DNA of 64,000 nucleotides from positions 1 to 64,000 of IMG/VR virus record IMGVR_UViG_3300028400_000005; one strand, written 5' to 3'. Shown here piece by piece: positions 9,838 through 43,353 of this stretch. The notes beneath the pieces were generated by a model. It ran no database searches, was not told where the DNA came from, and was given only the letters and a program-made list of their open reading frames with translations. Every line of letters starts with the position of its first letter. The stretch's first letter is position 1. The translations under genes were made by a program, and so were the position numbers. This DNA is from a virus.

Positions 9838-10203
9838 TTACGCTCCGACGGCGTTGGCCGGCCCCATGTCGGGGTCGTAGAGCACGTAACCCTCGCCGGA
9901 CGGCCAGTAGCTGTGCCCCTGGTAACGCTCGCCCCAGAGCGTCTTCTGCTCGGCGTGGTGCAGCGCGGCCAGGAAGAGCGACCACTCGTCGGGGTAGAGC
10001 TGTTCGAGCCGGGCCACGGTCTCCGGCTCGTCGTGGGGGTGGGGGAGATGCACCGACGGCAGCGTCTCCGCGTCCGTTTCCCGGCGCAGCCAGCGCTTCA
10101 GCGGCCACCAGTACATGCCGTAGGCCTTGTAGCTGCCAGGATCCCGCTGGAGCAGCTGCACCACCCCGCTCAGGGCTTCACGGTCCACCTTGCGCTTGCT
10201 CAT
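9838..10203 (-). CDS. Protein of unknown function
   Basis: Protein of 121 residues, overlapping the giant methyltransferase-helicase stop by 4 nt (ATGA at 10200-10203), hence translationally coupled to it. It is rich in Trp, Tyr and His (YGMYWWPLKRWL, GHSYWPSGEGYVLYDPDMG). No catalytic motif was recognised. Coupling suggests it may be packaged or act with the 2340-residue protein. Confidence 0.7.
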   Translation of the reverse strand: MSKRKVDREALSGVVQLLQRDPGSYKAYGMYWWPLKRWLRRETDAETLPSVHLPHPHDEPETVARLEQLYPDEWSLFLAALHHAEQKTLWGERYQGHSYWPSGEGYVLYDPDMGPANAVGA

Positions 10204-13200
10204 CGCGTCCTCCCCGTCATTTTATGGTAAAGCTCCACGAGCGAGGCCTTCACCAGGTACTCGGCCTGCTCGGGGCGCGGTATCGCGCGCCAATGCCGCT
10301 TGCCCAGCACCCGCTCGGCGTAGAAGGGCAGCGCACCGAGGGCGTCGTAGCCCAGGTCGCGCTCGCCGTGGTGTTTCCGCCACAGCTCGATGTCCTCGGG
10401 GGTGTTGGTGAGCAGCCGCTCGCCCTCTTCAAGCGGGATGCCGGGCTTGGCGTACGAGGCGGTGCGGTGCTCGGGGACGCCCTCGCGGTTGACGACCCAG
10501 GCCCCGATGCCGCCCCGGTCCTGCTTGGCCCACTCCTTGAGCGCTTCCTGGATCCGGTCGTGGTGCCGGCGCACCACGTCGGGGTGCACCTTCTGCAAGC
10601 CGGTGACGCCCACGTGCCGCAGCCGCTGCGCCAGCTCCTGCCCCAGGGTTTCGTCGTCCACCCGCGGGCGCGCGAAGATGTTGCCCAGCTCGGCCACGTC
10701 CTCGATCTTGTAGCTCGAGGGCTTGGGCTCGGAGCCGTAGCGCTGCAGCGGCACCAGCGGGGCGATCTGCATCGTCTTGGTGACGGGGCTGACCGAGAGG
10801 ATGCGGAAGTGCCGCACGCCGCCGTCCTTGGTGTGCTGCTCGATGTGGCCGCCCTCCACGAAGACCTGGCCCGACGGGGCGATCACGAAGGGACGGCCCT
10901 CGCGGATCGCGTCCAGCTGGTCCTTGCTCACCTGCTCGTTGCGCTCGAGGTCGGACATGCGCGCCCGCCACTCGCCCTCGAGGCGCTTGAGCTTGCGGCT
11001 GCGCTCCTCCAGGCGCCGGTTCCACACGGCCACCTTCTCGGGGCTCCCCTCGGCGTGCGCCTTCTCCAGGTTGGCCTGCGCCTGAGCGACCAGGCCGCGC
11101 TGCTTCTGGACGGAGTGGTGCAGGATGCTCGCCTGCTGCAGCTTCTGGACGGTGGCCTGCCACGCGGCGGCCTTGGCCTCCTCGAGGCGCTTTTTCTTCT
11201 GCTTCTCCAGGATCGCCCGCACGTCGTCGGGGTTGTCGGCCGTCTGCATGAGCATCTGGGTGTAGGGGTCGTTCTCCGGGTCCATGGCGTCGGCGTTGCG
11301 GGCGCGCTCCTCGGTGCTGTTCCACAGGATGTCGGTCCAGCCCTTCTTACCGAGCATGGTGCCGTAGGTCATGGCGTCCACGGAGCCGCGCGCCAGCAGC
11401 ACGTGGTTGCGCACCTTCTCCTGGGTGTTGCCCTGCCGTACGGCGCGGCCCAGGCGCTGCCAGTAGGTGCCCGGGTCCCAGGGGATGTCCAGGTGCACCA
11501 TGTCGGTCGTGCCCGTCTGCAGGTTGAACCCCTCGCCGATGACCCCGGTGGAGCCGATGACCACGCGGATCTTGCCGGCCTTGTAGGCGGCCTCGATGTC
11601 GGCGCGGGCGGCCGAGCTCTTGGCCGTCTTCGAGGTGACGACGGCGATCTGGTCTTCGGGCACGCCCGCCTCGATGAGGTGCTGCTTAAGCCGGGCGTAG
11701 GCGTTGGTGCGGCTCTCCTCGAGGTGCTTGGCGACCAGCTTCCGCAGCTTGGCGGTGGTCATGCCCTCATGGGGGAGCTTGTTGCGCTTGGCGTACTCGC
11801 GCAGGGCGTCCTCGCCCATGTCCTCGGCGGGGTTCTCGTCCATGGACGACTGCCCCAGGTCCATGAACATGACCACCTTCCCGCCCTCGCTGAGCGCCTG
11901 TTTGGCGATCTCGCCCGCCTTCTGGAAGCGCGGGTTGGGCAGGTGCCCCAGGCGCTCGGGGTCGTAGACCGCGGGGTCGAGGGTGAGGAAACGCATGCGC
12001 GCCAGGTAGGAGAAGAAGTGCTCGTCGCCTTCGGCTTCGCGGTTGGCCGCGGCGTGCTGGGCGGCGGCGGCCAGGGCGCGGTACTCCGTGTGCTGCTCGG
12101 GGTGCATCTCGAAGATGTGCTCGTGGTCCTCGCGCTCGGGGATCTTGAGACCCACCTCCTGCGCGGTGCGCCGGAAGATGTAGCGGTTCATCAGTCCCCG
12201 AAGCTCCCCCAGGTTCTTGAACCCGAGGACGGCGGTCCGCACCTCCACGCCGCCGGGCGTGGCCACCAGGGCATTGCCGATGTCCGTGTAGCGGCTGATG
12301 AACGCCTCCGGGGTGGGCGCGATGCGGTCTACGGCGTCGGTGACGTAGCGCAGCATGTTGTAGACCTCGAGCGGCGAGTTTTTGGTCGGGGTGGCCGTGA
12401 GGGCGTAGATCCCGCTGCCGTCGTTGTGGTCGCGCACGTGCCGCGCCTTGATCAGCATGTCGAGCGCGCGCTGCGACTCCGAGCCGGCCCCCAAAAACTT
12501 CGGCGACTCGCCGAAGACCCGCGGCGCCGCATGCAGGTTCTTGTAGGCGTGGTGCTCGTCCGAGATGAGCGCGTCCACGCCCAGGTCCTCCCAATGCACC
12601 GCCCGCACCTGGTCGCCGAAGAGCTTGGCCGTGGCCTTCTCCATGGCCTGCTGCATCTTGCCCACCCAGTCGCGCTCGCTGCGCTTCTTGCGCTTGTCGT
12701 GCTGCGCCTCCTCGAACTCGCGGGCGCGCACCACGTCGTCCTTGACGTAGCGCTCGAGGGTTTCGGGCCGTACCGGGATGGCACCGAACTTGTCGCGGGT
12801 GATGAGCACGCGGGTGATGCTGGGGTCCGCGGCGAGGCGCGCGAGCTTGGTGGCCACGTCCTTCATTTTGTCCTCGCGCCAGACCTTCTTCTTGGGATCA
12901 AAGGTCTCGCCGATGACCATCACGTGGTCCCCGGGGACGCCCCGGGCCACGTCCGCCCGGGACAGGGCGCGCAGCGCCGCGCGGAAGCGCTCGGGCTCGA
13001 GCCCGCTGGCCTTCTCGGCGTCGTTCAGGTTGATGAGGTCGCGCTCCTTGAGCAGATCGTAGACCTTCTGCGCGTCCGCGGCGGTCTGCTCGTCGGTGCC
13101 CTCGGGGACGGCGAACTCGCCCGTGATGTACCAGCGGCCGCTACCGAGCTCGGCGTAGCTGTTGCGCCAGTTGCCCATCAGGCTCTTGGGCATGACGTGC

Positions 13201-16200
13201 ATGACCCGCTTGGCCCGGCCTTCGTGCTCGAGGAGCTGGGCTAGCGCGAGGCCGGCGTACGTCTTCCCGAGACCCACGTCGAGGGCCATGATCGAGTTGC
13301 CGGTGTCGAGGGCGTGCCGCACCGCCTCCGTCTGGAAGTCATGCAGCGGCGGACCCTTCCAGTCGGGGATGTCCAGCGCCTCGTTGCTGTACTTGGGCGG
13401 GATGTAGCTGTTGTAGGTGCGGTTGTAGCCCTCTTCGAGCTCTTCGCGGTAGTCGGAGCTGGCCGCCCACGCCTTGAACTGGTCGGCCCACTCCTGCTCC
13501 TGCTTGCGGGCCTCCTCGCGGTACTGCGCCTTGAGCGCGTCCAGCTCGGCGCGGGTCATGGTCCTCGTCTGCTCGGCCGTGAGGCGCCGCACCGGGGTGT
13601 CGAAGTTGAGGTACTTGACGAACTCCTTGACGTGGTCGGGGAGACTGTAGCCCTCGGCGTGCTCCACGATGAAGATGCCGGTGTCCGTACGCCGCACATT
13701 GTACTGGCCGCCCGGGTCCACGACCTCGCCGATGAAGTCGCGCACCACCTCCGGGCGCACGTAGTGGTCGCGGGCCGTGATCTCGACCTCCTCGAGGGGC
13801 TTGCGGGGCAGCTTCTCGCGGAACTTCTTGGCCTGGGCCCGCAGGATCTCGCGTTCGGTGTTCGAGAGGCCCGGGGCCTCGGCGGCCCGCTCCAGCGCCT
13901 CGGAGCGCTCGTACACGTCCCCGACGTAGAACTCGTCGTCGGGAATCCAGCGCCCCGACTCGTCCATGGCGTAGCCGTTCTCGGCCAGCCACTCCATGGC
14001 CTGCGTGGTGCCCCAGCCTTTCCCCGCCAGCACCGAGGCCAAGCGGGTGGGGGTGAGGCGCCGCTGCCGCGCAAGGTGCGCCGCGACGGCGTAGGGGTCG
14101 GTGTAGTCCACCCCCTCGCCGCGCTCGCCCGTGACCGGGTTGAGCAGGTGCTCGGCCACGTCGCCCTTGGGCGTGACGGCGCTGAGCAGGTGGGCGAGGC
14201 TGTGCCGGCGTTTGAGCTCGCCGGCCAAGTGTTGGTGGGGGTTGCCGTACTCCTCCAGGTAGCGCTTCAGGGACTCGACCACCGCCTTACGGCGCGCCTC
14301 GGCGTCGGCCGGGCTGCCGTTGTTGAGCACGTGCACGTACTCGCGCAGCTCGTCGGCGATGCTGACCGCGGCCGCGAGGCGCGGGTCCTCGCCCTGGATC
14401 GTGTGCCAGCGCCCGTTGCGGAAGACCAGGCGGCCGTCCTCGCTGACCGTCCCCTCCTCGACGCGGCCGCGCTCGAGGTTCGAGGCCGCGCTCGTGGCCC
14501 AGTCGCGGGCCGATGCGTACTCGTCCCCGTAGTGGCGCTCCAGCGCCGCCATGTCCGCCGGCTGTTCGTCGGTGGGGGCCTGGGCCAGGCGCTCGAGCAG
14601 CCCGGGCTCGAGCTCGCCCTCGATCTTCTTGTAGCCGTGGTACGTGGTCTCGCCGCTCCACGTCCCGAAGAGGTGGTCGTCGCGCAGGTGCAGCTTGCCG
14701 TCCAGGAAGTCGCGCGCGGCGTCCGTGAGCACGCCCGCCTTCTCCAGGGCCTCCTCGCCGTGGCGCTGCACCAGGCGCAGGAGGGTCATCCCCTCATCGT
14801 CCGGGCGCTTGCGCACCACCAGCACCACCGGGGGCACCCCCGAGTTGGACTCCTTGAAGACGCTGGAGGGGAGCTGGTAGGCCCCCAGGACCTCCGCCCG
14901 GGCCAAGAGGCGCCGGCGGAAGTCGCGGGTCGAGGGGTTCTCGACGGGTCCCGGGTTGATCAGGTGCACGCCCACGCCGCCGTCCTTGAGGCGGTCCAGG
15001 GAGGCGTCAATGAAATACTGCTCGGCCTTGGCGAGCCACGGCTTGCCCTTGCCGATCAGGCTGCCGCGGATGCCGTAGGGCGGGTTGGCGATCACCGCGT
15101 CGTAGGTGTGCTCCTGCCCTTCGCCCTGGTTGTACTCCTCGAAGGACAGGCCGGGGTAGACCTTGTGCCCCCGGGGCTCGTGCAGCAGCTTGCCGATCTT
15201 GCCCGATACCTCGGAGAGCTCGACGCCGGTCACGCGGGTGCCGTCGGGGGCGGTGTGCAGGAAGACGCCGTTGCCCATCGAGGGCTCGAGCGCGGTCTTG
15301 GGCTGGCCGGCCACGCGGTGCAGCAGGGCCCACATGGCGGCCGCCAGCGGCGCCGGGGTGTAGTGGGCGTTCAGGTCGCCCGTCAGGCCGCCCTCGCCGG
15401 TGTAGGCGGCCAGGACCTGGCGCTCCTCCTCGGTGGGCTCGCGCTTCTCGTCTTCCAGGCGCTCCAGCAGCTCCACGGCGCGCGCGTTGGCCTTGGTGCG
15501 CTGGGCAACCGTGGCCTTGGGCAGCAGCGCGAACCCGAACCGGGGAATACGCTTCAGGATCTCGCGCAGGGGGCGCGCGTAGTTGAGTCCGCGGCCTTCG
15601 GCTTCGGCCTGGGGCGGCTCCTCGGCGGCCGGCTCGGCCTCGGCCTCGGGCTCGGTCTCGGTCGGCTTGGCCTCGGGTTCGGGCTCCGGCTCGGCCTGGG
15701 GTTCGGCCGCTCCGGCTTCCGCCTCGGGCGCGGTCGGCTTGGCCTCGGGTTCGGGCTCCGAGGTGGCCTGGGGCTCGGGTTCGGTTTCCTGCCGGGGCGC
15801 GCTCGGGGCGCTTTCGGGTTCCTCGTCCACGCGGTGCCAGCGCCCGCCCTTGAGGCGGTACGTGTGGGCCCCGTCGGCGAAGACGACCGTCTTCTCGGCA
15901 CCCTCCCGCAGGTGCTGATCGGAAGGGTCGGCCGGCAGCTCCGCGGGGGCCGGTCCCGCGGTGTCGGGCACCGACGGCTCCACCTGCGGCGCGTTCTTGC
16001 CCTCCCAGCGCTCGCGCGGCACTTCATGGTAGAAGTGGTCGGTCAGGTTCTGGGCGAAGACCCGGGCGAACTGGGGGTCGCGTCCCCGCAGCTCGTAGCC
16101 GCGGATCGGGTCGTGCGTCGCCGTCTCCTCCAGCTCGAGGGCGCCGTCGGGAGCCACCTTGTACACCAGCTCGCCGTCGAGGTAGATGTCGCTCATTGGG

Positions 16201-17222
16201 TCGTCGGGGTCGGCGTGGCGGTAGTGGGTGAGGTACAGCCGCGGCGCGCCGTCCCGCCCCGGGTGGCGCTCGATGACCAGCGGCAGGAAGGGCGGGTTGG
16301 GGATGCGCAGGTGGTAGTCGCCGTCCTCGTCCCCCTCGCGCAGGACGTGCTCACGCAGGCCGGCCCGCTCCAGGAACTCCGCCACCGCCTTGGCGTCGGC
16401 GCTCTTCTGGCGGTCGGCGGGGGCGACGGCCGGCCCCGCGTCCTGTTCGGGCTCGGCCGGCTTGGGCGGCTCCAGCTCCCCGCGGCTGGCCAGGCGGGCC
16501 GCGGCCTCGACCTTCTTGGCGAGGGCGCCCGCCGTCTTGATCAGGTTCTCCGAGCCGTGGTCCACCCGTCCCCCGGCGTCGTAGGCGAAGCTGCTCGCGG
16601 CGTACAGGTCCTTCATCGCCGCCTGCAGCTTCACCAGCATGCGCTGCAGGCGCGACAACGGGTCGTTCCCGCGGGGCAGCTTGCGCGGGCGCAGCTTCTT
16701 GCGCTCCCACTTGGGGGCCGCGTTGGAGTCGAAAACGCGCTCCACCTCGCGCTCGAGCTCGTCCAGGGCGGCCTCGGGATCGCGGCGCAGGGTCGCTTCC
16801 CAGTCGTCCGGCGCCGGCCGCTCTTCGGGTTTGGCCTCGGGTTTGGCCTCGGTCTCGGTCGGCTTGGCCTCGGCCTCGGGCTTGGGGGCGGCGGCCTGCG
16901 GCTTCGGCTTCTGCGCGGCCTCCGCCTCGCCGTCCGCCTTCTCCCAGTACGTCTGCGTGTGAACCTTGCCGCTCTTCTCGCGCACCACCTTTTTGACCGG
17001 CTTGAGGTGCGCCTTGTCGTGCCGGCGGTCGAAGAGCGACGGCTGCTCGGGCTGGCGGCCCTGCCCGTCGAAGAGTGCGGGCTGGTCGGGGGGCGGCGCC
17101 TTGCGCCGGCGCGTCCCCGCAGAGCGCCGCGTGCGGCGCGCGGACCGGCTGGGGGCTGGAGGGAGGTTGAAGAGGGCCTGGGCCTGGGCTTTGATGAGGT
17201 CGTAAATCTCGCGTAGGGTCAT
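10200..17222 (-). CDS. Giant DarB-like polyvalent protein: adenine methyltransferase plus SNF2 helicase
   Basis: Protein of 2340 residues. An N-terminal disordered region of Ala/Glu/Pro/Lys repeats carries two sliding-clamp-type motifs, QPALF (47-51) and QPSLF (60-64). An N6-adenine methyltransferase domain follows at about 600-780, with SMGNGVFLHT as the SAM-binding loop and ANPPYG near 713. A superfamily-2 helicase spans about 1300-1950: Walker A DVGLGKT near 1315, DEHH box near 1555, and RLGRAVRQG motif VI near 1920. The 350-residue C-terminus is helical. The arrangement resembles P1 DarB, an internal head protein injected with DNA to block restriction, and large polyvalent proteins of phages and plasmids. 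It is co-transcribed with the helicase gene at 17485-22722. Confidence 0.85.
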   Translation of the reverse strand: MTLREIYDLIKAQAQALFNLPPAPSRSARRTRRSAGTRRRKAPPPDQPALFDGQGRQPEQPSLFDRRHDKAHLKPVKKVVREKSGKVHTQTYWEKADGEAEAAQKPKPQAAAPKPEAEAKPTETEAKPEAKPEERPAPDDWEATLRRDPEAALDELEREVERVFDSNAAPKWERKKLRPRKLPRGNDPLSRLQRMLVKLQAAMKDLYAASSFAYDAGGRVDHGSENLIKTAGALAKKVEAAARLASRGELEPPKPAEPEQDAGPAVAPADRQKSADAKAVAEFLERAGLREHVLREGDEDGDYHLRIPNPPFLPLVIERHPGRDGAPRLYLTHYRHADPDDPMSDIYLDGELVYKVAPDGALELEETATHDPIRGYELRGRDPQFARVFAQNLTDHFYHEVPRERWEGKNAPQVEPSVPDTAGPAPAELPADPSDQHLREGAEKTVVFADGAHTYRLKGGRWHRVDEEPESAPSAPRQETEPEPQATSEPEPEAKPTAPEAEAGAAEPQAEPEPEPEAKPTETEPEAEAEPAAEEPPQAEAEGRGLNYARPLREILKRIPRFGFALLPKATVAQRTKANARAVELLERLEDEKREPTEEERQVLAAYTGEGGLTGDLNAHYTPAPLAAAMWALLHRVAGQPKTALEPSMGNGVFLHTAPDGTRVTGVELSEVSGKIGKLLHEPRGHKVYPGLSFEEYNQGEGQEHTYDAVIANPPYGIRGSLIGKGKPWLAKAEQYFIDASLDRLKDGGVGVHLINPGPVENPSTRDFRRRLLARAEVLGAYQLPSSVFKESNSGVPPVVLVVRKRPDDEGMTLLRLVQRHGEEALEKAGVLTDAARDFLDGKLHLRDDHLFGTWSGETTYHGYKKIEGELEPGLLERLAQAPTDEQPADMAALERHYGDEYASARDWATSAASNLERGRVEEGTVSEDGRLVFRNGRWHTIQGEDPRLAAAVSIADELREYVHVLNNGSPADAEARRKAVVESLKRYLEEYGNPHQHLAGELKRRHSLAHLLSAVTPKGDVAEHLLNPVTGERGEGVDYTDPYAVAAHLARQRRLTPTRLASVLAGKGWGTTQAMEWLAENGYAMDESGRWIPDDEFYVGDVYERSEALERAAEAPGLSNTEREILRAQAKKFREKLPRKPLEEVEITARDHYVRPEVVRDFIGEVVDPGGQYNVRRTDTGIFIVEHAEGYSLPDHVKEFVKYLNFDTPVRRLTAEQTRTMTRAELDALKAQYREEARKQEQEWADQFKAWAASSDYREELEEGYNRTYNSYIPPKYSNEALDIPDWKGPPLHDFQTEAVRHALDTGNSIMALDVGLGKTYAGLALAQLLEHEGRAKRVMHVMPKSLMGNWRNSYAELGSGRWYITGEFAVPEGTDEQTAADAQKVYDLLKERDLINLNDAEKASGLEPERFRAALRALSRADVARGVPGDHVMVIGETFDPKKKVWREDKMKDVATKLARLAADPSITRVLITRDKFGAIPVRPETLERYVKDDVVRAREFEEAQHDKRKKRSERDWVGKMQQAMEKATAKLFGDQVRAVHWEDLGVDALISDEHHAYKNLHAAPRVFGESPKFLGAGSESQRALDMLIKARHVRDHNDGSGIYALTATPTKNSPLEVYNMLRYVTDAVDRIAPTPEAFISRYTDIGNALVATPGGVEVRTAVLGFKNLGELRGLMNRYIFRRTAQEVGLKIPEREDHEHIFEMHPEQHTEYRALAAAAQHAAANREAEGDEHFFSYLARMRFLTLDPAVYDPERLGHLPNPRFQKAGEIAKQALSEGGKVVMFMDLGQSSMDENPAEDMGEDALREYAKRNKLPHEGMTTAKLRKLVAKHLEESRTNAYARLKQHLIEAGVPEDQIAVVTSKTAKSSAARADIEAAYKAGKIRVVIGSTGVIGEGFNLQTGTTDMVHLDIPWDPGTYWQRLGRAVRQGNTQEKVRNHVLLARGSVDAMTYGTMLGKKGWTDILWNSTEERARNADAMDPENDPYTQMLMQTADNPDDVRAILEKQKKKRLEEAKAAAWQATVQKLQQASILHHSVQKQRGLVAQAQANLEKAHAEGSPEKVAVWNRRLEERSRKLKRLEGEWRARMSDLERNEQVSKDQLDAIREGRPFVIAPSGQVFVEGGHIEQHTKDGGVRHFRILSVSPVTKTMQIAPLVPLQRYGSEPKPSSYKIEDVAELGNIFARPRVDDETLGQELAQRLRHVGVTGLQKVHPDVVRRHHDRIQEALKEWAKQDRGGIGAWVVNREGVPEHRTASYAKPGIPLEEGERLLTNTPEDIELWRKHHGERDLGYDALGALPFYAERVLGKRHWRAIPRPEQAEYLVKASLVELYHKMTGRTR

Positions 17223-17452
17223 TCGGTCGCCTCCACCGCGCGGGCCGTCCCGCGCTCGAGCACGTGGCTCAGGTACTCGTCTTCCAGCGCGCTTCCCCGC
17301 GGGGCGCGGATGCCGTCGGCGGCCGCGCGGGCGGCCTCCTCGTGGCGCTCGGCCACGCGACGGGCGGCACCGCGCGCTGCGGCCTCCTCCACGTGGGCGC
17401 GCGCGATCTCGGCGCTGATCTCGGCCAGCAAGCGCTTGGCGTCGTCCTTCAT
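17219..17452 (-). CDS. Small helical protein between the two giant helicases
   Basis: Protein of 77 residues from ATG 17452 (AAGGTG ribosome site; a GTG three codons earlier is possible). It is almost entirely a charged alpha helix (KRLLAEISAEIARAHVEEAAARGAARRV). The stop overlaps the ATG of the giant gene by 4 nt, so it is coupled to it. Role unknown; could be a small packaging or chaperone partner. Confidence 0.65.
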   Translation of the reverse strand: MKDDAKRLLAEISAEIARAHVEEAAARGAARRVAERHEEAARAAADGIRAPRGSALEDEYLSHVLERGTARAVEATE

Positions 17453-17484
17453 GGTGCGCACCTTATCCGCCGTGGTGGTCAGTC

Positions 17485-20400
17485 CTACCCGAAAAGCGTT
17501 CCCTGCTGCGCCGCGGGGTTCGGCGCCGGCGGGGGCGGGGGCGTTGGATCGTCGTCGTCGTCGCGCTCAGGGCGGGACAGGCCGGCCAGCTGCAGCTGCA
17601 GCGCGAGGCCGGTGTCGTCCATGTGTTCGTACGGCCCCTGGAAGATCTGCCCCAGGAGGCGCTTGCGCTCGAGGCGTTCCAGGTTGGCGCGGTCGTGGTC
17701 GGTGTCCGTCATGAGGGTGTGGATCTCGATCGCCTTCTTCTGCCCGAGGCGGTCAATCCGCGCCGAGCGCTGCTCCCACGTCTTGTGCGTCATGGGCAGG
17801 TCGTAGTGCACCAGCCACTCGCCGCGGTGCTGCAGGTTCGCGCCGGTCGCGCCGGCGTCGGAGGCGACGATGATGTCCACCTCGCCGCGGTCGAAGCGCT
17901 GGCGGATGCGCGCCTTGTCCTGGGCGCTGTGCCCCCCGTGCAGGACGGCGACCTTGTGCCCGGCCCGCTCGAGGGCGGCGGCGATCTCGGCCACCGCCTT
18001 GCGGTTGTGGGCGAAGACCACGCCGCCCTTCCCGCGCCGCTGCTCCGCGAGCGAGAGCAGGTGCTGGATCTTGGCGTTGCGGTCGGCGGGGGCCTCGTTG
18101 ATCACGCGCGCCTTCGCGGCCTCATGCAGCACCCCGAGGCTGCGGTTGAGTTTCTGGGCGACCTGCTCGTGCTGGGCCTCGGGGACGCCCTCGAAGCTGC
18201 GGGGCGAAAGGGCCCGCAAGGCCTCCAGGTCCACGTCGCCGCGGTCGCGGGCGCGCACGGCGCGCTGGTAGGCGGCGCGCACCTCTTCCAGCTGCGCCCG
18301 CTGCTCCGGGTGCAGCGGGATCGGGGCGTGCCCGCTGGGGGTGTCGCCGCGGGTGCCGTCCGCGCCCCAGACGACGCGCTTGGTCGTCCCCGAGGGCACC
18401 ACGTCGTGGTAGACGTAGCGGTCGGCCAGCCGCTTCAGCGCCTCACGTGCGGTCAGCGCGTCCACGCCGTAGCGGCGCCGGAACTCGGCCGCGTCGCCGA
18501 AGCGCTTGGGGTCGAGCTTCTTGAGCCAGTCGCCGATCTCGGAGGCGTCGTTCTTGACCGGGCTCCCGGTCATCAGGGTGCCGTACGGCGACAGGCTCAT
18601 CGCGGTGTCGAGCACGGCCGTGAGCAGCGACTCCGCCTTGCCCTGGCGGTTCAGGGCGTCGTGGGCCTCGTCCACGGCGACGTAATGCAGGGGGATCCCG
18701 TGGGCCTCCAGGGCCTCACGCATGAGGCGCTGGCGCTCCGGCAGGTCGGCCTCGAGGAAGCGGTCCTTGAACGCCTCGAGGTCCTCCCCGTGGTGCTCCG
18801 CCATCAGCTTGAGCATGTCGTCGCGGAAGGCCTGGTGGGTAACGGCCACCATGTGCACGTCGGGGGTGGCGTAGGCGGCCCGGCGCTCTTCGTGCGTGGC
18901 CTCGCGCGCGTGCCAGCGGAAGCGGCCGGGCTCGAGCACCCGGGCCATCTCCTCGCCGAACTGGTCGCGCACGATCGAGGGCACCACGAACAGGCCCTTC
19001 TTGGCCTCGCCGCGGTGGTGGAGCTCGGTGAAGGCCCCGATCGCCACCGAGGTCTTGCCGCTCCCCGTCCCCAGGAAGGCGGCGAGCTTGCGGCCTTCGA
19101 TAATGGCCTTTATCGCCCGCTGCTGCTTCACGTACTTGGTGCCCTTGCCCATGGTCACGGGGTACATCTGCACCGGGCTCATGCCCGCGTGGACGCTGCC
19201 GGCAACCTCCGGCATGAGGGCCGCCAGCCGCTTCTCGACGGCGGGGGGCAGGGCGTGCCGCTCGAGGTGCGGCACCGGGGCCTCGGGCTCGACCGCCTCG
19301 TCGCCGGCGTTGGCGAAGAGGCTGGCCTGCGCCATGCGCGCGGCGCGCTCTTCCTCCTTCTTCTTGCGCCACGCCTCGAGCAGCGACCCCTTCCCGCCCA
19401 TGTACGCGAAGCGGCCGCCCTGACGCTCCCGCAGGCTGTGCTGCTGGCGGGCGATCTCGTCCTTGAAGCGGCGGTACCCCTCGGGGTCGCGCACCGCCCA
19501 CAGGTGCTCGCCCCAGCGGTTCGCCTCCTTCGACAGGCGTAGGGGCTGGCCGGTGAGCTTGGCGTGGTAGTGGGCGTAACGGCTCGCCAGCGACCCCCTC
19601 ATGTGCTCCTGCACCGCCTCGTAGGCGCGCTGCGGCCCGCCGATGCCCTCCACGAACTTGTTCCACTCGACGAGCTCCGCCTGGTCGCCCAGCGCTTCGG
19701 TGGCCACCCGCTGGCGGTCGCGGTGCCACTTCACCCAGTCCGGGTTCAAGGGGAGGTCGCTCGCCAGCCGGTCGGGGTAGGGGTTGCCCCGCAGGTTGGC
19801 CTTGCCGTCCTCGGTGAGGGTCACGCTGCCGTCGTCGTTTTCCACGTAGTCGCCGCGGCCCAGCCCCATCGCGCGCAAAGTCTCGGCGCGGAGGTCGGGG
19901 TCGGCGGCCACATGGTCACGGAACCGCAGCGTGATGGGGGCGTCGGGGTCTACGGGGGCCGGCTCTCCGAAGAGGCCGCCGTCCTGGGGCGCGCCCCACT
20001 TCTCCGGCATGGGGTGCTTGGCCTCGTACTCGGCCAGGGCCTTGCGCACCGCGTTCTTGCGCGCGGCCAGCTCCTCGGGGCTCTTGCCCAGGATCTCGGT
20101 CAGGTAGTAGTGCCGCAGCGCACGCTGGTCGCGGTGGTCGAGCTCGCCCAGGGGCTTGAGGGCCACCTGCGTGCGCGGATCGGCGAGCACGCTCAGGTAG
20201 AGGGCCTTGCGGACCTCCGGGGTGTCGCCCACCGTCTGGCCGTAGAAGTCGGCCTCCCCGGGGTGCTCGCGCTCCACGAAGTCACGGGCCAGGCCGCGCA
20301 GCCGCTCATGGAGCTCGGGGTGCTTCTCCTGCAGGCGGTCGTAGTCCACCGGGATCGGTACCCGGTACTCCTCGCCCTTGCGGTTCTTGCGCACCTCCTC

Positions 20401-22722
20401 GCCCGCCCACGTAGGCAGCAGCTCCTCCAGGTGGCGGTCGTACTCCTCCATCTTCTCCGGGGGCACCCAGTCACGGATGAAGCTGCTCGAGGTGAGCAGG
20501 CGCTTGACCTCCGCCGGGGTCCACCCGTCGGCCAGGCGGCTGGCCACGGCCTCCTCCAACCCCGCGCGCACGTCGTCGCGGAAGTTGGGAGCGCGGGCGA
20601 GGCGGCGGGCCTTGGGGGGCTCCTGCTGGTCGAAGGCGCTGGCCGGGTAGCGGGCGAAGCCCGCCGGCAGCCAGTCCTCTTCGTCGTGGCGGCCGGCCTT
20701 GATCGCCTTGACCCGCTCGGCGGTCTCGCGTTCGGCGGGGTCGGCGTCGGGGGTCAGCCGGTCCATGCCCTGCCGGTTGAGCCGCACCCTGAAGCGGTCG
20801 TCGTCCCACTCGTAGGTGTAGTCGCCAGGCTCCAGGCCCAGGGCGCGCAGGGCCGGGATCACGTCGCGGGCGCTCTTGGAGAACTCCAGCTCGAGGTGGT
20901 CGGCCGGGGGCTGGCTGAGGGCGAGGTTGAGCGCCGCGGACGCCTCCAGCTTCCCGAGGGCGGTACCGAGGTGCCGGTGGGCCTCTTCGAGCAGGCGCCG
21001 CTTCCGGCGCACCAGGTCCATGACCGCCGCGGCGTCGGTGGTCGAGGTGATCGCCGGGATCTCGATCGCACGCGCGGCCTCGAGGGCCTTGGTGCCCCGC
21101 TCCATCGCCTCCTTGAGCATGGGCTCGAGGGTGCGGTCGTGGTGTTCGGCCAGGGCCTTGCGGACCTTGTCCAGCTCCTCCTCGCTCAGACCCCGGCGCA
21201 GCGCGTGCGCCGTGAGCTTGACCCCCGCGTCGAGACCCAGGGCATCGAGGGCGAGCCGGTCCAGGGTGTCGCGCCCGAGGACCGCGAGCGCCACGTTGCT
21301 CAGGTGGGCGTAGGCCCCGGCGGCGTGGTGCTTGTACAGGGCCTTGCGCAACTCGCCGTAGCTCCACCCGGGCTCGGCCGCCCGGTTCACGGTGTCCAGG
21401 AAGCTGCGGGTCAGGTCTTCCTTCGCCAGGTCGTCCACCCGGGCCGCGATCTCGCGCGCCAGGTCGGGGTCCACCTCCTCCGTGTGCACGAGCAAGGGGC
21501 TGCCGTCTTCACGCGCGTGGGCCTCCTCGAGGGCGCGCACCTCTTCCTCGCTGGCGTCGGGGTCGTGACCCAGCAGCGCGCGCCGCTTGGCGCGTTGCAG
21601 CTTGCGCAGTTGGCGCGCCGCGGCAAGGAAGGCACGCACGTCCTCGGCGTGCTGGCGCAGCTCCTCCGGCGTGGGGGCCTCCGGCTTGGGGGCGGCCTCC
21701 TCGAGGGCGGCGCCCGCCTCCTGCGCGAGGGGCTGGGCCGCGCGCATGCGCTCCCGGGCGGCGAGCACCCGGGCCTGGACCTCTGGCGCGTACTGCGCGA
21801 GCCGCGCCTGGAACGCCTCTTCGGCCTCGCGCTCGAACTCGTCCTGCGTGAGGCCCCGCTCCTCGGCCAGCTGGCGCATGGAGCCCCCGTAACCGCGGCT
21901 GGCCACCGGAGCCGTCTCCGCCCCGGGGATCTCGTCGGGTTCGATCTGCCCCCGCTCGCCCAGAACCGCGCTGCGTAGGTCGGGGTCGCGCACCAGGTGC
22001 TTGAGGACCTGGCGCTCGATCCGCTTGACGGCCTGGGTCGCGGCGCGAACGTGGCGCGCGGTGGCCAGGCCGGCGGCCAGGGAGGCCGCGTCGCCCTCGC
22101 CGGCCGCCTGCTGCGCGATGGTGCGCAGTTGCTCACGGGTCTCGTCGTCGAGCATGCGCTCGAGGTGCGGGTTTCCGGTGATCCGGGCGGCCGCGGCGAG
22201 CGCGGCCCGGTGCGCGGCCTCGATGTGCTCCTGCAGCCGCTGGGCCAGCTCCTTGCGCCGCTGGCGCTCCTCGGGGGGCACGTCCGGCTTGGGAGCGCGC
22301 TCTTGCTGGCGGCCGCGTCCGATCCGCGTCAGGCGCAACCCGTGCAAACCCTTGGGCCCCGAGACGACGTGGGCCGATCCGTCGGGGTTGACCTTGATCT
22401 TGACGTGGACGTAGTCGGGGTGGTCGGGTCCGTGGGGCTTCAGCGTGATCCAGCGCTCGTTGGGCCCTAGGTCGCCCCCGTCCGCCTTGTGCACCAGCTC
22501 GGCGGGCTCGAGCCAAAACACCAGCGCGAAGCCGTTTTCGTCGTAAGCCAGGTAGTAGCCCTTGGCCAGCGCACCCTTGGCCCGGGCAATGGCGATCCGT
22601 ATCGCCTCTCCCTCGTCGTACCCCTCGCGAAGCAGCGCGTTGGCGATCCGCACCGCCCGGCGCCGCACGGGGGGCGCGAGGTGCTTCATGGCATCGGGAA
22701 AGCGTTCTGCGGTCCAGGGCAT
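17485..22722 (-). CDS. Giant SNF2/SF2 helicase, polyvalent phage protein
   Basis: Protein of about 1745 residues started at ATG 22722, chosen over a longer frame to 22869 because it follows a TACGGT -10 by 7 nt. The N-terminal 50 residues match a widespread small domain (MKHLAPPVRRRAVRIANALL). Residues 200-1100 are helical and charged, with no enzyme motif recognised. Helicase core: GTGSGKT near 1215, DEAH near 1351, GSPVKN as motif III, ATGANLQH as motif V and RSARIDRLGQ as motif VI near 1650. It contains clamp-binding-like QASLF near 1131 and ends with QGTLFG. It is probably a virion-injected DNA-remodelling or anti-defence protein working with the DarB-like neighbour. Confidence 0.85.
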   Translation of the reverse strand: MPWTAERFPDAMKHLAPPVRRRAVRIANALLREGYDEGEAIRIAIARAKGALAKGYYLAYDENGFALVFWLEPAELVHKADGGDLGPNERWITLKPHGPDHPDYVHVKIKVNPDGSAHVVSGPKGLHGLRLTRIGRGRQQERAPKPDVPPEERQRRKELAQRLQEHIEAAHRAALAAAARITGNPHLERMLDDETREQLRTIAQQAAGEGDAASLAAGLATARHVRAATQAVKRIERQVLKHLVRDPDLRSAVLGERGQIEPDEIPGAETAPVASRGYGGSMRQLAEERGLTQDEFEREAEEAFQARLAQYAPEVQARVLAARERMRAAQPLAQEAGAALEEAAPKPEAPTPEELRQHAEDVRAFLAAARQLRKLQRAKRRALLGHDPDASEEEVRALEEAHAREDGSPLLVHTEEVDPDLAREIAARVDDLAKEDLTRSFLDTVNRAAEPGWSYGELRKALYKHHAAGAYAHLSNVALAVLGRDTLDRLALDALGLDAGVKLTAHALRRGLSEEELDKVRKALAEHHDRTLEPMLKEAMERGTKALEAARAIEIPAITSTTDAAAVMDLVRRKRRLLEEAHRHLGTALGKLEASAALNLALSQPPADHLELEFSKSARDVIPALRALGLEPGDYTYEWDDDRFRVRLNRQGMDRLTPDADPAERETAERVKAIKAGRHDEEDWLPAGFARYPASAFDQQEPPKARRLARAPNFRDDVRAGLEEAVASRLADGWTPAEVKRLLTSSSFIRDWVPPEKMEEYDRHLEELLPTWAGEEVRKNRKGEEYRVPIPVDYDRLQEKHPELHERLRGLARDFVEREHPGEADFYGQTVGDTPEVRKALYLSVLADPRTQVALKPLGELDHRDQRALRHYYLTEILGKSPEELAARKNAVRKALAEYEAKHPMPEKWGAPQDGGLFGEPAPVDPDAPITLRFRDHVAADPDLRAETLRAMGLGRGDYVENDDGSVTLTEDGKANLRGNPYPDRLASDLPLNPDWVKWHRDRQRVATEALGDQAELVEWNKFVEGIGGPQRAYEAVQEHMRGSLASRYAHYHAKLTGQPLRLSKEANRWGEHLWAVRDPEGYRRFKDEIARQQHSLRERQGGRFAYMGGKGSLLEAWRKKKEEERAARMAQASLFANAGDEAVEPEAPVPHLERHALPPAVEKRLAALMPEVAGSVHAGMSPVQMYPVTMGKGTKYVKQQRAIKAIIEGRKLAAFLGTGSGKTSVAIGAFTELHHRGEAKKGLFVVPSIVRDQFGEEMARVLEPGRFRWHAREATHEERRAAYATPDVHMVAVTHQAFRDDMLKLMAEHHGEDLEAFKDRFLEADLPERQRLMREALEAHGIPLHYVAVDEAHDALNRQGKAESLLTAVLDTAMSLSPYGTLMTGSPVKNDASEIGDWLKKLDPKRFGDAAEFRRRYGVDALTAREALKRLADRYVYHDVVPSGTTKRVVWGADGTRGDTPSGHAPIPLHPEQRAQLEEVRAAYQRAVRARDRGDVDLEALRALSPRSFEGVPEAQHEQVAQKLNRSLGVLHEAAKARVINEAPADRNAKIQHLLSLAEQRRGKGGVVFAHNRKAVAEIAAALERAGHKVAVLHGGHSAQDKARIRQRFDRGEVDIIVASDAGATGANLQHRGEWLVHYDLPMTHKTWEQRSARIDRLGQKKAIEIHTLMTDTDHDRANLERLERKRLLGQIFQGPYEHMDDTGLALQLQLAGLSRPERDDDDDPTPPPPPAPNPAAQQGTLFG

Positions 22723-22729
22723 CGCCCCC

Positions 22730-22751
22730 ACCGTAGCGGCGGGGGCGGTTG
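22730..22751 (-). promoter_or_regulatory. Class B (late) promoter for the giant helicase operon
   Basis: The minus strand reads ACCGCC, 8 nt, TACGGT (22735-22730), then 7 nt to ATG 22722, in a 59-bp gap between genes. Confidence 0.65.
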
Positions 22752-22781
22752 GGGTGCGGGCCCGGTCGGGGCGTCGTCGCG

Positions 22782-23546
22782 CTACGGCTGCCCAGCCAGC
22801 AGCGAGGCCCAGAAGTCCGCGATCGGGATGCGCCGGGTGACCCGGCCCGAGCCGTCGCACACGTGGCACTTCACCTCTTCGGGCTCGGGCTGGTCGTAGC
22901 CGTGCTCGGACCAGAACCTACGTACGAGCTCGTTCACCTGCTCCACGGTGAGCCCGTGACGCTCCTTTGGGGGGTGGGCGGCGTAGAAGGCCTCCCACAG
23001 GGGATGCGCGACGATCCCCTGCCCCCGGCACTCGTCGCACCTGGACTTGGTGACGACGTGGGTGACGGTGCCGCCGTAGGCGTCCTCGACCGCGCCCTTG
23101 ACGGCTCGGACCGCGTCGTGCACGTCGCAGGCGTCTTCGTCGCGCGCTTGTCGCTCGAGCTCGGCCAGGGTCAGCCCATGCCGGCGCGCGAGCCAGTTGG
23201 CGAGTTTGCGGGGCATGGGGTTCCGGGTTTTTTCCGGGTCCACGAGCCCCGGGAGGTCGTCGAGGTCATAGGCGCCGAAAAAGTCCTCAAGCGGCTCGTT
23301 GAAGCTGGTCTCGCAACCGTACCCCACCTGGAGGTTCCAATCCACGAGCTCAGCGCAGCGGCCGCAGATCTTGTACGTGCTCCACTTGTGGCCGTCCTCG
23401 TCCAGAACGTCGTGGCGGTAGTAGGTGGCCTTCGGGGGAATCACGCCGCCGCACGAGCTGCACGTATGCTGCCGGCGCGCCTTCAGGCGCTGTTCCTTGT
23501 GGAGCCGTACGTCGCAGTTATCCGTGTAGACCGTCACAGTAGCCAT
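22782..23546 (-). CDS. Zinc-ribbon protein of unknown function
   Basis: Protein of about 254 residues from ATG 23546 (purine-rich AAGGGGGGG upstream). Four Cys clusters are visible: CSSCGG and CGRC in the first 70 residues, then CDEC and CHVCDGSGR in the last 80. The last two resemble the CxxCxGxG repeats of DnaJ-type zinc domains. The middle is helical. It is the last gene of the accessory run 22782-28912. Possibly a nucleic-acid-binding or chaperone-like protein; no catalytic residues seen. Confidence 0.7.
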   Translation of the reverse strand: MATVTVYTDNCDVRLHKEQRLKARRQHTCSSCGGVIPPKATYYRHDVLDEDGHKWSTYKICGRCAELVDWNLQVGYGCETSFNEPLEDFFGAYDLDDLPGLVDPEKTRNPMPRKLANWLARRHGLTLAELERQARDEDACDVHDAVRAVKGAVEDAYGGTVTHVVTKSRCDECRGQGIVAHPLWEAFYAAHPPKERHGLTVEQVNELVRRFWSEHGYDQPEPEEVKCHVCDGSGRVTRRIPIADFWASLLAGQP

Positions 23547-23560
23547 CCGTGCCCCCCCCT

Positions 23561-23926
23561 TCACGCCAGCGGCCGCCTCGGATCGCGCCCCCCGGCCGAT
23601 TCGGCCAGCGCCTCCGCCATCATCCCGGCGGTTTTCAGCAGCATCGAGGCGAACCGCAGCGCCTTAACCCGCGTCTCATCGCACGGGTCGTCACCCCCGA
23701 GCTCGTCCGCGGCGTCCAAGAACGCTGCGGAGGCGCGCGTGTAGGCTTCGGCCGCCCCGCGCATGAAGATCTCCAGCGTGCCAAGGTGGTCGCCCAGAAC
23801 AACGCCGGCGGGCACGAGCTCAGCGGCCACGTCCACCAGCTTCTCGGCGACCTCCTGCTCCATGCCACCGTGCTTGAGAATGTTGACGAGCGACGCCTTG
23901 CTTGCGCTCCCCTGTTCGGTCGTCAC
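23561..23926 (-). CDS. Small helical protein, unknown
   Basis: Protein of 121 residues, all-helical pattern (EVAEKLVDVAAELVPAGVVLGDHLG, TRVKALRFASMLLKTAGMMAEALAE). Its ATG overlaps the stop of the Gp37/Gp68-like gene by 4 nt. No family recognised; operon position links it with the radical-SAM-type neighbour. Confidence 0.65.
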   Translation of the reverse strand: MTTEQGSASKASLVNILKHGGMEQEVAEKLVDVAAELVPAGVVLGDHLGTLEIFMRGAAEAYTRASAAFLDAADELGGDDPCDETRVKALRFASMLLKTAGMMAEALAESAGGRDPRRPLA

Positions 23927-24936
23927 GCCACCACCTCCTCAGCCTCCGGGTACTCCTCGTACAGCCGCCCGTCCAGTTCCCGGCCGGCCGCCCTGCGACC
24001 GACGCGCGACATGACGACCGGGCGGTCGAGGTCGGCCGTCCCCCCGAGCTCCACCGGGACAACCTGACCGTCCACGTCGAGCAGGAAGGGCGTCCGCGAG
24101 GGTGCCTCCCCCGGGGCGAACTCGCCCCATTGCTTGAAGAAGAAGGCGGCGCCGTACCGGTGCGCCTGGGTGCGCAGGGACCGCACCCAGGCCGGATGCA
24201 TGGGGCGCGCGCCGCGGCCGGTCTCGCCCCCCACGATCACCCAGCTCACCCGTCCCGGGAGCTGCTGGCCCGGGCGGTCCAGTCGCTCCCCGGTCAGCAC
24301 GTTGTACAGACCGCCCCCGTCCCGGTCGTCGGCCTGCACGTGGTCCAGCCACAGGCTGCCCAGCAACGGCTCGGCGCTGACGAACCGCACGAGCGGCACC
24401 GGGCTGCGGATGCTGGCCAGGTCGAGGGCCCGCTGCGCGAACTCCTGCCGCCCCACCGACACGCCGAACCAGATTGAGGCGGCCCCAATCGGCGCGACGC
24501 GGTGCTCCAGGAACTCGTCGAACCAGGTCTCCAGGATGTCCCGCATGCGCCTGGACCGCTTGGTCAGCACCATGAAGCGGTGCGGCTTCTGACCGGCGTG
24601 GACGCGGTTCGCGTTAACCTGCTCCATAGTGTTCAGGATCCGCAGGATGGTGCGCGCGGGCAGGTCCTCATGGAAGAGGTCGCCCATCGAGCAGCAAAAC
24701 ACGGCCCGGGGCGCGCGCCACCGCGCGGGGACGCTCAGGCGGTCCTCCAGGAACTGCACTTCGGTAAACGGGCGGCCGTACTGCGCCGGGGCCCCCCTCC
24801 ACTCCCCCCGCTTCCAGGCGCGGTGCCGCTTCGTATGCAGGCGCTCGGCGTAGCAATGCTTGCACTCGGTGCTGACCTTGGTGCAGCCCACCACGGGGTT
24901 CCAGGTCTCCTCCGCCCATTCGATCTTCGTTGGCAT
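23923..24936 (-). CDS. Phage Gp37/Gp68 family (DUF5131), radical-SAM-like protein
   Basis: Protein of 337 residues. It opens with IEWAEETWNPVVGCTKVSTECKHCYAE, the family signature in which C18, C25 and C28 would bind a 4Fe-4S cluster. Later conserved blocks are FCCSMGDLFHEDLP, HRFMVLTKRSRRM, IWFGVSVG, RFVSAEPLLG and WVIVGGETGRGARPMH. The family is common in phages and mobile elements and is related to radical SAM enzymes; the substrate is not established. It lies in the accessory operon read from the class A promoter at 28927. The match to the family is strong, the role open. Confidence 0.85.
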   Translation of the reverse strand: MPTKIEWAEETWNPVVGCTKVSTECKHCYAERLHTKRHRAWKRGEWRGAPAQYGRPFTEVQFLEDRLSVPARWRAPRAVFCCSMGDLFHEDLPARTILRILNTMEQVNANRVHAGQKPHRFMVLTKRSRRMRDILETWFDEFLEHRVAPIGAASIWFGVSVGRQEFAQRALDLASIRSPVPLVRFVSAEPLLGSLWLDHVQADDRDGGGLYNVLTGERLDRPGQQLPGRVSWVIVGGETGRGARPMHPAWVRSLRTQAHRYGAAFFFKQWGEFAPGEAPSRTPFLLDVDGQVVPVELGGTADLDRPVVMSRVGRRAAGRELDGRLYEEYPEAEEVVA

Positions 24937-24948
24937 GATGCCCCCCTT

Positions 24949-25203
24949 CTACCTTTCCGTCAGCGGGACCAACGCCGTGACCTTCCGGGTTTCGTAGTCC
25001 ACGTGTACGAAGTCGAGGGCGCTGAAGTGTTCCCGCACCACCTGCGCGATCCGGTCGAGAACGTCGGCCGTCGAGGCGTCGAACATGACCTGCTCGTCGT
25101 GCTCGTCCACGAGCGTGGGCACGTTCGTCACGATGAGGACGGGACCGCCGTCGGGCAGCTGCCACGCGTGCACCGTGCGCTCCTCGCGCAGGCTAGCGTG
25201 CAT
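24949..25203 (-). CDS. Small protein of unknown function
   Basis: Protein of about 84 residues from ATG 25203, overlapping the previous stop by 11 nt. It has an alternating beta/alpha pattern (VLIVTNVPTLVDEHDEQ, VLDRIAQVVREHFSALDFVHVDYE). No family recognised. The GGGAGG upstream supports this start. Confidence 0.6.
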   Translation of the reverse strand: MHASLREERTVHAWQLPDGGPVLIVTNVPTLVDEHDEQVMFDASTADVLDRIAQVVREHFSALDFVHVDYETRKVTALVPLTER

Positions 25204-25435
25204 CGCCCTGACCTCCCTCACCCGCCTCGGGAAACAGCTCCACCGTCACCACCGCGCGCATTCCGACGGCGAGCTCCCGCACCGCGCCTTCGTCCGTGGG
25301 GATGGTGGCGATCACGCGGTCGTGTTCGTCGGTCAGCACGAGCTCGGGGTCGCCGTTGCACCCCTCGATGACCTCGGACAGGCGCGCGGGGATGACGTAC
25401 GTGGTCGGGGTCGGTTTAGTCTTGGTCCTGGTCAC
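25193..25435 (-). CDS. Small protein of unknown function (GTG start)
   Basis: Protein of about 80 residues from GTG 25435 with GAGGAGC just upstream; the longer open frame is a shadow of the neighbour. It contains YVIPARLSEVIEGCNGDPELVLTDEHDRVIATIPTD, a beta-strand-rich pattern. It overlaps the preceding gene by 20 nt and the next by 11 nt, as in tightly packed phage accessory operons. Confidence 0.55.
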   Translation of the reverse strand: MTRTKTKPTPTTYVIPARLSEVIEGCNGDPELVLTDEHDRVIATIPTDEGAVRELAVGMRAVVTVELFPEAGEGGQGDAR

Positions 25436-25709
25436 GCTGCTCCTCCTCCCGCTGCATGGCGACCCGCAGGCTGCGCAGGGCCGTCTCGGTCGCGCGCATC
25501 TGGCCGTAGGTGTCCGCGGCCAGCTCGCGCGCCACCGTGAGGGCTGACTGCACCTCCGGGCCCCGGGTTCCTTCCGTGGCCGCATCGGCGACCCGGATCG
25601 CGTCGAGCGCGCGCTCGATCGCTTCCTTACCGCGCGTGCGCAGCTCCTCCTCGGCCCGCAGCAGCATGCGGTGCGCGTCGGTGAAGCTGGTCGGTTCGTG
25701 CTTGGTCAT
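25416..25709 (-). CDS. Small helical protein, unknown
   Basis: Protein of 97 residues from ATG 25709 (AAGGAGGGCAGGG upstream). It is a single long charged helical protein (HRMLLRAEEELRTRGKEAIERALDAIRVADAA, ALRSLRVAMQREEEQ), probably dimeric by coiled coil. The start lies inside the preceding HTH gene (83-nt overlap). No function assigned. Confidence 0.6.
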   Translation of the reverse strand: MTKHEPTSFTDAHRMLLRAEEELRTRGKEAIERALDAIRVADAATEGTRGPEVQSALTVARELAADTYGQMRATETALRSLRVAMQREEEQRDQDQD

Positions 25710-41250: not shown

Positions 41251-41453
41251 TCGCGCTCATCGAGCGGCTGGATCTGGCCAATGGGCTGCCCTACCTGCTG
41301 GCGGCGCGCGCCGGTGAGCTAGATAACCCGCCGTTGATCTGGCTCCTGTGGGAAGTGGAGGGCCTGGTCGAGGGGTCCAAGCTCACCGCGAAGGGTGAGA
41401 AGGTGGTGCACCACCTTCTCGGGCTGGCCGATGCCCTGGACATAGCCATCTGA
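41238..41453 (+). CDS. Small early protein, unknown
   Basis: Protein of 71 residues, leucine-rich and acidic-basic helical (LIALIERLDLANGLPYLLAARAG, IWLLWEVEGLVEGSKLTAKGEKVVHHLLGLADAL). Its start overlaps the preceding gene by 13 nt (GGGAGGGCT as ribosome site). It has no predicted transmembrane helix long enough to be sure. Role unknown. Confidence 0.6.
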   Translation: MGELIALIERLDLANGLPYLLAARAGELDNPPLIWLLWEVEGLVEGSKLTAKGEKVVHHLLGLADALDIAI

Positions 41454-41480
41454 GACGGACAAGCAAGCAAGGGAGACTGC

Positions 41481-41951: not shown

Positions 41952-41974
41952 GGAAGAGGGACAGGCAAGCCAGC

Positions 41975-42031: not shown

Positions 42032-42286
42032 ATGAAGACACCCGAAGCAGTTCTCCAGCACGCACCCGCCGCCGCTCACGGCGCCGCGTCGGCGGCCGTG
42101 ACGCTCTTGCCGGCTGACGGCTGGCGCGCCGTCTATGAAGGCGGGGACGCGCGACCGTTGGTAGCTTGGCGCTTCGTCGGAGACCGCGGCGAGGGCATCG
42201 TGCTCAACGAAGCGGGGGAGACGGTAGCGGCCCCGATGCTCCCGGGGTTCAAACGCTACCTGTACGTCCAGCGGAGGAGCGCATGA
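42032..42286 (+). CDS. Small protein preceding the sliding clamp
   Basis: Protein of 84 residues with an excellent AGGAGGT site. The N-terminus is Ala-rich (VLQHAPAAAHGAASAAVTL); the rest is a beta sheet pattern (WRAVYEGGDARPLVAWRFVGDRGEGIVLNEAGETVAAP). The stop overlaps the clamp ATG by 4 nt, so its translation sets clamp synthesis. No family recognised. Confidence 0.65.
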   Translation: MKTPEAVLQHAPAAAHGAASAAVTLLPADGWRAVYEGGDARPLVAWRFVGDRGEGIVLNEAGETVAAPMLPGFKRYLYVQRRSA

Positions 42287-43353
42287 AGTTCGCCCAGGCC
42301 GTCTCACTCCTGGCGGGCCTCGTGCCTACCCGCGCCAGCAACCCGGCGCTGGGCCACATCCACCTCGATACCAAAGACGGGGTGCTCGTCGGCCGCGCGT
42401 CCAACGGGGAAGTGGACCTCGAAATCATGACGACGGAGGCGGCCCTCGAGCTGGATCCGGGCGGGGTGCTGGTGCCCCCGGCGGGGTTTGCGCGGTTTGT
42501 CGCTAGCCTGAAAGAACCTGCGCTGGGATACGACCCCGAGACGCGCGAGCTGGTCGTCAGCGGCGGCGCAGCCTCGGCCCGTTTCCGCACCGGCCGCGCC
42601 GACGACTTCCCCGAGATGCGCGCCTTTGGGGGCGAGGTTCCGCGCGTGCGCATCCCTGCCGGCGAGCTTCGCCGGGCGCTGTCCGTGCGCTTCGCAAGCT
42701 CGGCCGAAGACTACCGCGCGATCTTCCGCGGGGTGCAGTTCGAGTTCCGCGAGAAAGGCTTCCGCACCGCGGCCTCGGACGGGTTCCGCCTCGCGGTCTA
42801 CGACTTCCCCGAAAGCGAGGGCGAGGTCGAACGCCTGTTCGTCATCGCCCGAAAGTCGCTCGACGTGCTGAGCAAGCTCCTTCCCGGGGACGAGTCGCCC
42901 GTAGAGGTGGCCGTCCAAGGCCCGCAGGTGCAGTTCGTGTGGGAAGGCGTGCGCCTGGTCCTCACGGCCATGGAGGGGCAGTTTCCCGACTACGAGCGGG
43001 TCGTGCCCAAGGAGATCACCCACACCATCGAAGCGCCGCGTGACGACCTCCTGACCGCGCTCAAGCGGCTGGCGCCGCTCACGGACCCGAACACGGCCCG
43101 GGTGGACGTGCGGTTCGAGGACGGGGCCGCCACACTCACCGCCGAGGGCGACTACGGTAAGGCCAACGACCGGGTGGAGCTCCTGGCGGTCCAGGGCGAA
43201 CCCGTCCTGCAGTCGTACAACCTGCATTACCTGCAGGAGGCGCTGCAGCACGTGGACACCGATCGTGCCACCCTCGAGCTCAGCGGTCCCGTGACCCCTG
43301 CGGTCATCCGCGGAGAAAGCACCTGGAGCATCGTGGTACCGCTGCGAACCTAG
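42283..43353 (+). CDS. dnaN: DNA polymerase III beta-like sliding clamp
   Basis: Protein of 356 residues (ATG 42283), length normal for DnaN. Three-domain beta-clamp features are visible: MKFAQAVSLLAGLVPTRASNPALGHIHLDTKDGVLVGRASNGEVDLE at the N-terminus, ASDGFRLAVYDF near 160 (the conserved A-T/S-D-x-x-R-L), VVPKEITHTIEAPRDDLLTALKRL near 240, and NLHYLQEAL near 313 with a terminal STWSIVVPLR. It encircles DNA and tethers polymerase and other partners carrying Q-x-x-L-F peptides; such peptides occur in the two giant helicases of this phage. It is repressor-controlled by the class A promoter at 41975. Confidence 0.93.
   Translation: MKFAQAVSLLAGLVPTRASNPALGHIHLDTKDGVLVGRASNGEVDLEIMTTEAALELDPGGVLVPPAGFARFVASLKEPALGYDPETRELVVSGGAASARFRTGRADDFPEMRAFGGEVPRVRIPAGELRRALSVRFASSAEDYRAIFRGVQFEFREKGFRTAASDGFRLAVYDFPESEGEVERLFVIARKSLDVLSKLLPGDESPVEVAVQGPQVQFVWEGVRLVLTAMEGQFPDYERVVPKEITHTIEAPRDDLLTALKRLAPLTDPNTARVDVRFEDGAATLTAEGDYGKANDRVELLAVQGEPVLQSYNLHYLQEALQHVDTDRATLELSGPVTPAVIRGESTWSIVVPLRT

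Follow-up and report, generated by a model that had tools for sequence, protein, structure and literature searches.

Two giant polyvalent proteins of this phage, a DarB-like methylase-helicase and a large SF2/SNF2-type helicase, carry short peptides that resemble bacterial clamp-binding motifs. Docking of both giants on a bacterial β sliding clamp via these candidate motifs is the best explanation of the pattern described below and, in our opinion, a rather probable one.

The two giant proteins and their candidate motifs

The window (the entire analysed stretch of 64,000 nucleotides) is contig C386 of a genome bin of 5.4 Mb in 702 contigs, and contains portal, minor head, major head and terminase genes. 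The closest relatives of the two giants are proteins of the Thermus myoviruses Lalka8, Lalka27a and Lalka27b (described in PMC11437467), in which the same set of DarB-like protein, Ulx-like protein, helicase and dnaN is found in one genome, at 52–57% identity. The DarB-like protein (2340 aa; 10200..17222, minus strand) is 52% identical to DarB of the Lalka phages and matches PHROG 11801 (3.2e-223) and the Pfam families SNF2 (3.7e-12) and Helicase_C (4.1e-10). It consists of a disordered N-terminus, DUF6908, an N6 adenine methylase (about 570–830) and an SNF2/SF2 helicase (about 1290–1940), so that methylase and helicase follow each other within a single polypeptide, and a Ulx-like small protein (9838..10203, minus strand; 43.7% identity to Lalka8 Ulx over 119 aa, E 5.5e-25) is encoded directly downstream. 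The same methylase-SNF2 helicase fusion followed by ulx is known from P1 DarB and the methylase-helicase dyad (Iyer et al., 2017). P1 DarB is packaged into the virion and protects from type I restriction (PMC9024508), from which we infer by analogy that the DarB-like protein of the window would also be injected and protect against restriction. Unlike the window protein, the DarB proteins of P1, D6 and JK004 have neither a long N-terminal region nor an N-terminal Q..[LM]F. The second giant (17485..22722, minus strand; Pfam Helicase_C 2.2e-14) is 57% identical to the Lalka helicases, and its predicted model resembles motors of the SWI2/SNF2 type, Isw1, Ino80, RapA and Rad54 among them. Its reading frame opens at GTG 22869, while the start used by homologues is ATG 22722, giving 1745 aa. 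Elsewhere in the window, a 192-aa protein encoded at 29999–30577, between the portal and minor-head genes, matches polyvalent-protein PHROGs over the segment corresponding to an inorganic-pyrophosphatase domain of L096.

The preliminary description had placed QPALF and QPSLF within the first 65 residues of the DarB-like protein, and they are found there at residues 47–51 (17070..17084) and 60–64 (17031..17045; QPALPF in the aligned relative L008), both encoded on the minus strand like all the peptides discussed here. It had also noted a QASLF near helicase residue 1131 and a C-terminal QGTLFG; the former occupies residues 1132–1136 (19315..19329), about 85 residues before Walker A, and the latter residues 1740–1744 (17491..17505), where QGTLF is followed by glycine and the stop, one residue from the C-terminus. 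A degenerate first slot in the DarB-like protein, AQALF at residues 14–18 (17169..17183), had been missed. The 67-ORF set of the window contains five Q..[LM]F matches, four of them these peptides and the fifth in a ParA-like protein.

The canonical clamp motif consists of glutamine, an aliphatic residue, any residue, Leu/Met and Phe/Leu; isoleucine is also tolerated at the end and replacement of the glutamine by asparagine does only modest harm (2024 review, PMC11139829). All four strict window motifs have Q at position 1, L at position 4 and F at position 5, so the proposed match to the clamp-binding consensus holds within these tolerances. Known motifs sit in C-terminal tails, at an N-terminus (Hda) or in loops (PMC11139829), and the motifs of cellular clients (Pol III α QADMF, Pol V QLNLF, Hda, Pol II, Pol IV) likewise follow Q-x-x-[LM]-[FL] at such N-terminal, C-terminal and loop positions. 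The DnaE of the window's own bin carries GQTSLFG. At position 2, where cellular motifs prefer leucine but substitutions are tolerated, the window motifs have P, P, A and G, while L and M are frequent in relatives, and therefore single-motif affinities in the window may be weak; QADMF of Pol III α offers a precedent in nature (PMC11139829).

Are these peptides accessible? In predicted models of the window proteins, DarB residues 15–73 (AF2), including QPALF and QPSLF, have pLDDT under 50 and QGTLF has pLDDT 32–45. QASLF, at about 56, lies at the end of a predicted helix preceding a loop of pLDDT under 50. The predicted locations are thus exposed and flexible, and burial of the motifs in folded segments, which the preliminary description named as evidence against its proposal, is not supported, with three of the four under 50 and QASLF at about 56.

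Recurrence and enrichment of the motifs in relatives

Alignment-based scans for both proteins yielded 18 loci with DarB and 97 with the helicase, of which 80 were viral and 17 genomic. Dereplication at 70% identity of the ORFs from all loci collected left 45 helicases and 24 DarBs for comparison. The motifs recur in three slots, at the DarB N-terminus, in a linker 74–92 residues before the helicase Walker A (the position of QASLF) and at the extreme helicase C-terminus. Q-x-x-[LM]-F occurs 29 times in the first 130 residues of the 24 DarBs, where 0.75 occurrences are expected (maximum 4 in 200 local shuffles), while the rest of the protein has one against 5.1 expected. The last 25 residues of the 45 helicases contain 12 against 0.58 expected (maximum 3), the whole helicases 32 against 9.3, and a relaxed C-terminal pattern, Q..[LMI][FLI], is present in 19 of the 45 against 0.21 expected (maximum 3 in 5000 shuffles). 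Since these counts are far above the local-shuffle expectation, the motifs are not due to chance. Permuted control motifs (Q.[LM].F, N..[LM]F, E..[LM]F and others) were mostly at or below expectation; the reversed F[LM]..Q exceeded expectation in the DarB body (20 versus 4.5) and, to a slight degree, at the helicase C-terminus (3 versus 0.6), and Q...[LM]F did so to a moderate degree at both termini (6 versus 0.6 and 4 versus 0.6), but none of these approaches the main signal. Chance occurrence in tails rich in P, Q and A is thus rejected by both local shuffles and control motifs. Comparison with other non-overlapping ORFs of the same loci points in the same direction: the C-terminal motif is found in 1 of 701 such ORFs and in 12/45 helicases (Fisher p 6e-15), and the N-terminal motif in 25 of 733 and in 19/24 DarBs (p 1.5e-21), both p values ignoring relatedness among homologues.

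Among the 52 slot motifs, in which the search pattern fixed Q and F, position 4 is L in 47 and M in 5, and position 3 is mostly A, G, S, D or T; variants of the C-terminal slot end in LL or LI. In close relatives the helicase tail may be altered while the motif is kept, as in PAPNPAAQQGTLFG of the window and PPPQQGALFG of L009, which also differ in tail length. The strict Q..[LM]F is absent from the entire protein in 20 of the 45 dereplicated helicases. Under looser slot definitions, 31/45 have at least one slot, and at least 10 changes of the C-terminal label fall on the motor-domain tree, so that the trait is not one inherited accident; the distribution of the slots along this tree shows repeated gain or loss. 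A similar pattern is known for IS transposases that bind the host β clamp (PMC4549789): these are also proteins of mobile elements, with a mostly C-terminal motif that varies and reappears among homologues, although they serve transposition and the giants described here would serve DNA protection.

Other giant DarB-like phage proteins have a single Q..[LM]F each (Itty13 QPQLF, Y7 QDGMF and a gut phage QMSLF; L132, L134, L136), and those of Atu_ph08 and USP_25 have none. When a DarB N-terminus was sought in phages as a module by itself, its own record and weak hits were all that came up. The N-terminal regions of many DarB relatives also contain T/E/V-x-[DA]-[LM]-F peptides, for example TPDLF, TLDLF and TADMF, which are possibly weak clamp motifs.

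Host clamp or phage clamp

The phage does encode a clamp, as the preliminary description stated. The dnaN-like product (356 aa; 42283..43353, plus strand) has all three DNA_pol3_beta domains, its best PDB match is the Deinococcus radiodurans β clamp 4trt (7e-47), and the peptide pocket is conserved: R152, G174, R176, L177, P242, R246, V247 and P363 (E. coli numbering) are kept, with changes at 155 (F), 172 (S), 175 (F), 360 (I), 362 (V) and 364 (L). Because most pocket residues are kept, the phage clamp could also be a partner. While the phage clamp has its best PDB match in Deinococcus, the bin's own clamp (L001, 622–1767) is closest to proteobacterial-type clamps; since these matches differ and the nearest phage relatives infect Thermus, the contig may be wrongly binned.

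Do the motifs then mainly serve the phage's own clamp, with the two giants as dedicated parts of a phage replisome? The window phage, its close relative L008 and Lalka8 all combine dnaN with at least one motif, and the conserved pocket of the window clamp fits such a role. However, PF02767 is above cut-off in only 6/46 records, and strict motifs are present in 5/6 relatives with dnaN and in 33/39 without detected dnaN (45 compared; fragments may hide dnaN). Complete genomes without dnaN, those of PHB04 (94 kb) and Cumys (50 kb), keep the motifs. Lalka8 has dnaN and its DarB keeps QPALF and QPTLW repeats, yet its helicase, unlike that of the window, has no strict motif, and in the Lalka phages no DNA polymerase gene can be recognised, so that reliance on the host enzyme is assumed (PMC11437467). 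We therefore regard such a dedicated role as improbable and reject phage dnaN as the general driver of the motifs. As the motifs are about equally common without dnaN, including in complete genomes, their general partner is more likely the clamp of the host. Of the original clamp-docking proposal, the identification of the peptides as candidate clamp-binding motifs is the best supported part, as they are conserved, enriched and found in low-confidence segments, while the phage's own clamp as their reason is not supported by the comparison of 33/39 with 5/6.

Possible packaging signals and other partners

The main rival to clamp docking is that Q-x-x-L-F is a virion-docking or capsid-targeting signal, bound by a head component during assembly and leading to packaging and injection. 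P1 DarB is packaged via its N-terminal 30 residues, with residues 6–10 (MGVFR) implicated (PMC9024508), and the first DarB slot lies in the same N-terminal position; its LF is invariant across 20 aligned DarB relatives, with Q first in most. This first slot, degenerate as AQALF in the window phage, may be a capsid-targeting element instead of a clamp motif. Motifs are also found in other large polyvalent proteins, some without known DNA activity (for example, one with an ART-PolyVal match), an observation that both the clamp and the packaging models can accommodate. P1 DarB, however, is packaged although it has no N-terminal Q..[LM]F, the helicase slots are internal and extreme C-terminal, and the tolerance of M at position 4 and L/I at position 5 is that of the clamp pocket. 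That P1-type DarB functions without the motif counts, at the same time, against clamp docking, as does the lack of any strict motif in 20/45 helicases and in the helicase of Lalka8.

Plasmid relatives, possibly phage-derived themselves, also speak against a packaging signal, since some end in QLSLF or QLTLF or start with SQLNLF. The Lactobacillus kefiranofaciens plasmid homologue ends in PKQLSLF and the 51% identical one of L. crispatus in ASQLTLF, with different tails, and an Acetobacter plasmid homologue has an N-terminal SQLNLFD. Three Rhizobiales plasmids have TIDLF, TFDLF or TLDLF at the N-terminus, and many of the plasmid homologues examined have neither terminal motif; when 385 genomes belonging to a single class were sampled for plasmid-type homologues, three genomes only were obtained. 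The Rhodovastum linear plasmid L152, possibly a phage-plasmid, encodes a DarB-like protein (17220–26513) with QPDLF and QTMLF and a helicase (41249–45844) with QMGLF and a C-terminal QHSLF. Overall, capsid targeting fits the first slot of DarB but not the helicase C-terminus or the plasmid relatives, and as a general account of the motifs we consider it unlikely. Many DarB and some helicase relatives begin with hydrophobic residues followed by K-A/S (for example MIILLTKA, MKPILFLKAS), a shared beginning that might, independently of the clamp motif, be a common signal for packaging.

It could also be argued that the motifs bind some other phage or host protein and resemble the clamp consensus by convergence, given that the motif is short, that the clamp is a predicted partner and that T replaces the first Q in some rhizobial plasmid relatives (TIDLF, TLDLF). 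This appears very unlikely, as the motif turns up in three distinct sequence contexts, resembles clamp clients in its residue profile and recurs in relatives from phages infecting Thermus, Bordetella and other hosts.

Possible role of the proposed clamp docking

Returning to docking on a β clamp, we propose that the DarB-like protein and the helicase would use motifs in disordered or low-confidence tails and linkers to bind the hydrophobic pocket of the clamp, that of the host in most relatives and that of the host, the phage or both in the window phage. Two motifs per protein would suit a dimeric clamp with two pockets, and such pairing would offset the non-optimal residues at position 2. A docked methylase and dsDNA translocases would be held at sites of DNA synthesis, where new unmethylated phage DNA could, as soon as it is made, be modified or freed from complexes for restriction and repair. 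We infer the binding, the identity of the clamp and the purpose of docking from the motifs, their enrichment, recurrence and sequence context, and the conserved clamp pocket, which together suggest that the giants act on newly copied DNA, usually via the host clamp.

Clamp docking by mobile-element transposases is already known (PMC4549789), and clamps are absent from the 2017 polyvalent-protein paper (Iyer et al., 2017); our search found no earlier report connecting DarB or anti-restriction with the sliding clamp in open-access full text. More broadly, and only tentatively, the large polyvalent anti-restriction proteins that phages and plasmids inject or transfer may commonly be clients of the recipient's clamp, with protection of the incoming DNA coupled to its first replication, and phages with their own clamp may be able to shift the docking there. 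A clamp tether would give giant methylase-helicase proteins a simple rule for finding the right DNA, namely to act where DNA is synthesised. Predictions follow from it directly, both for the binding of the peptides and for mutants of the motifs. If true, it would link anti-restriction with the replisome and extend the clients of the clamp by a large class of proteins.
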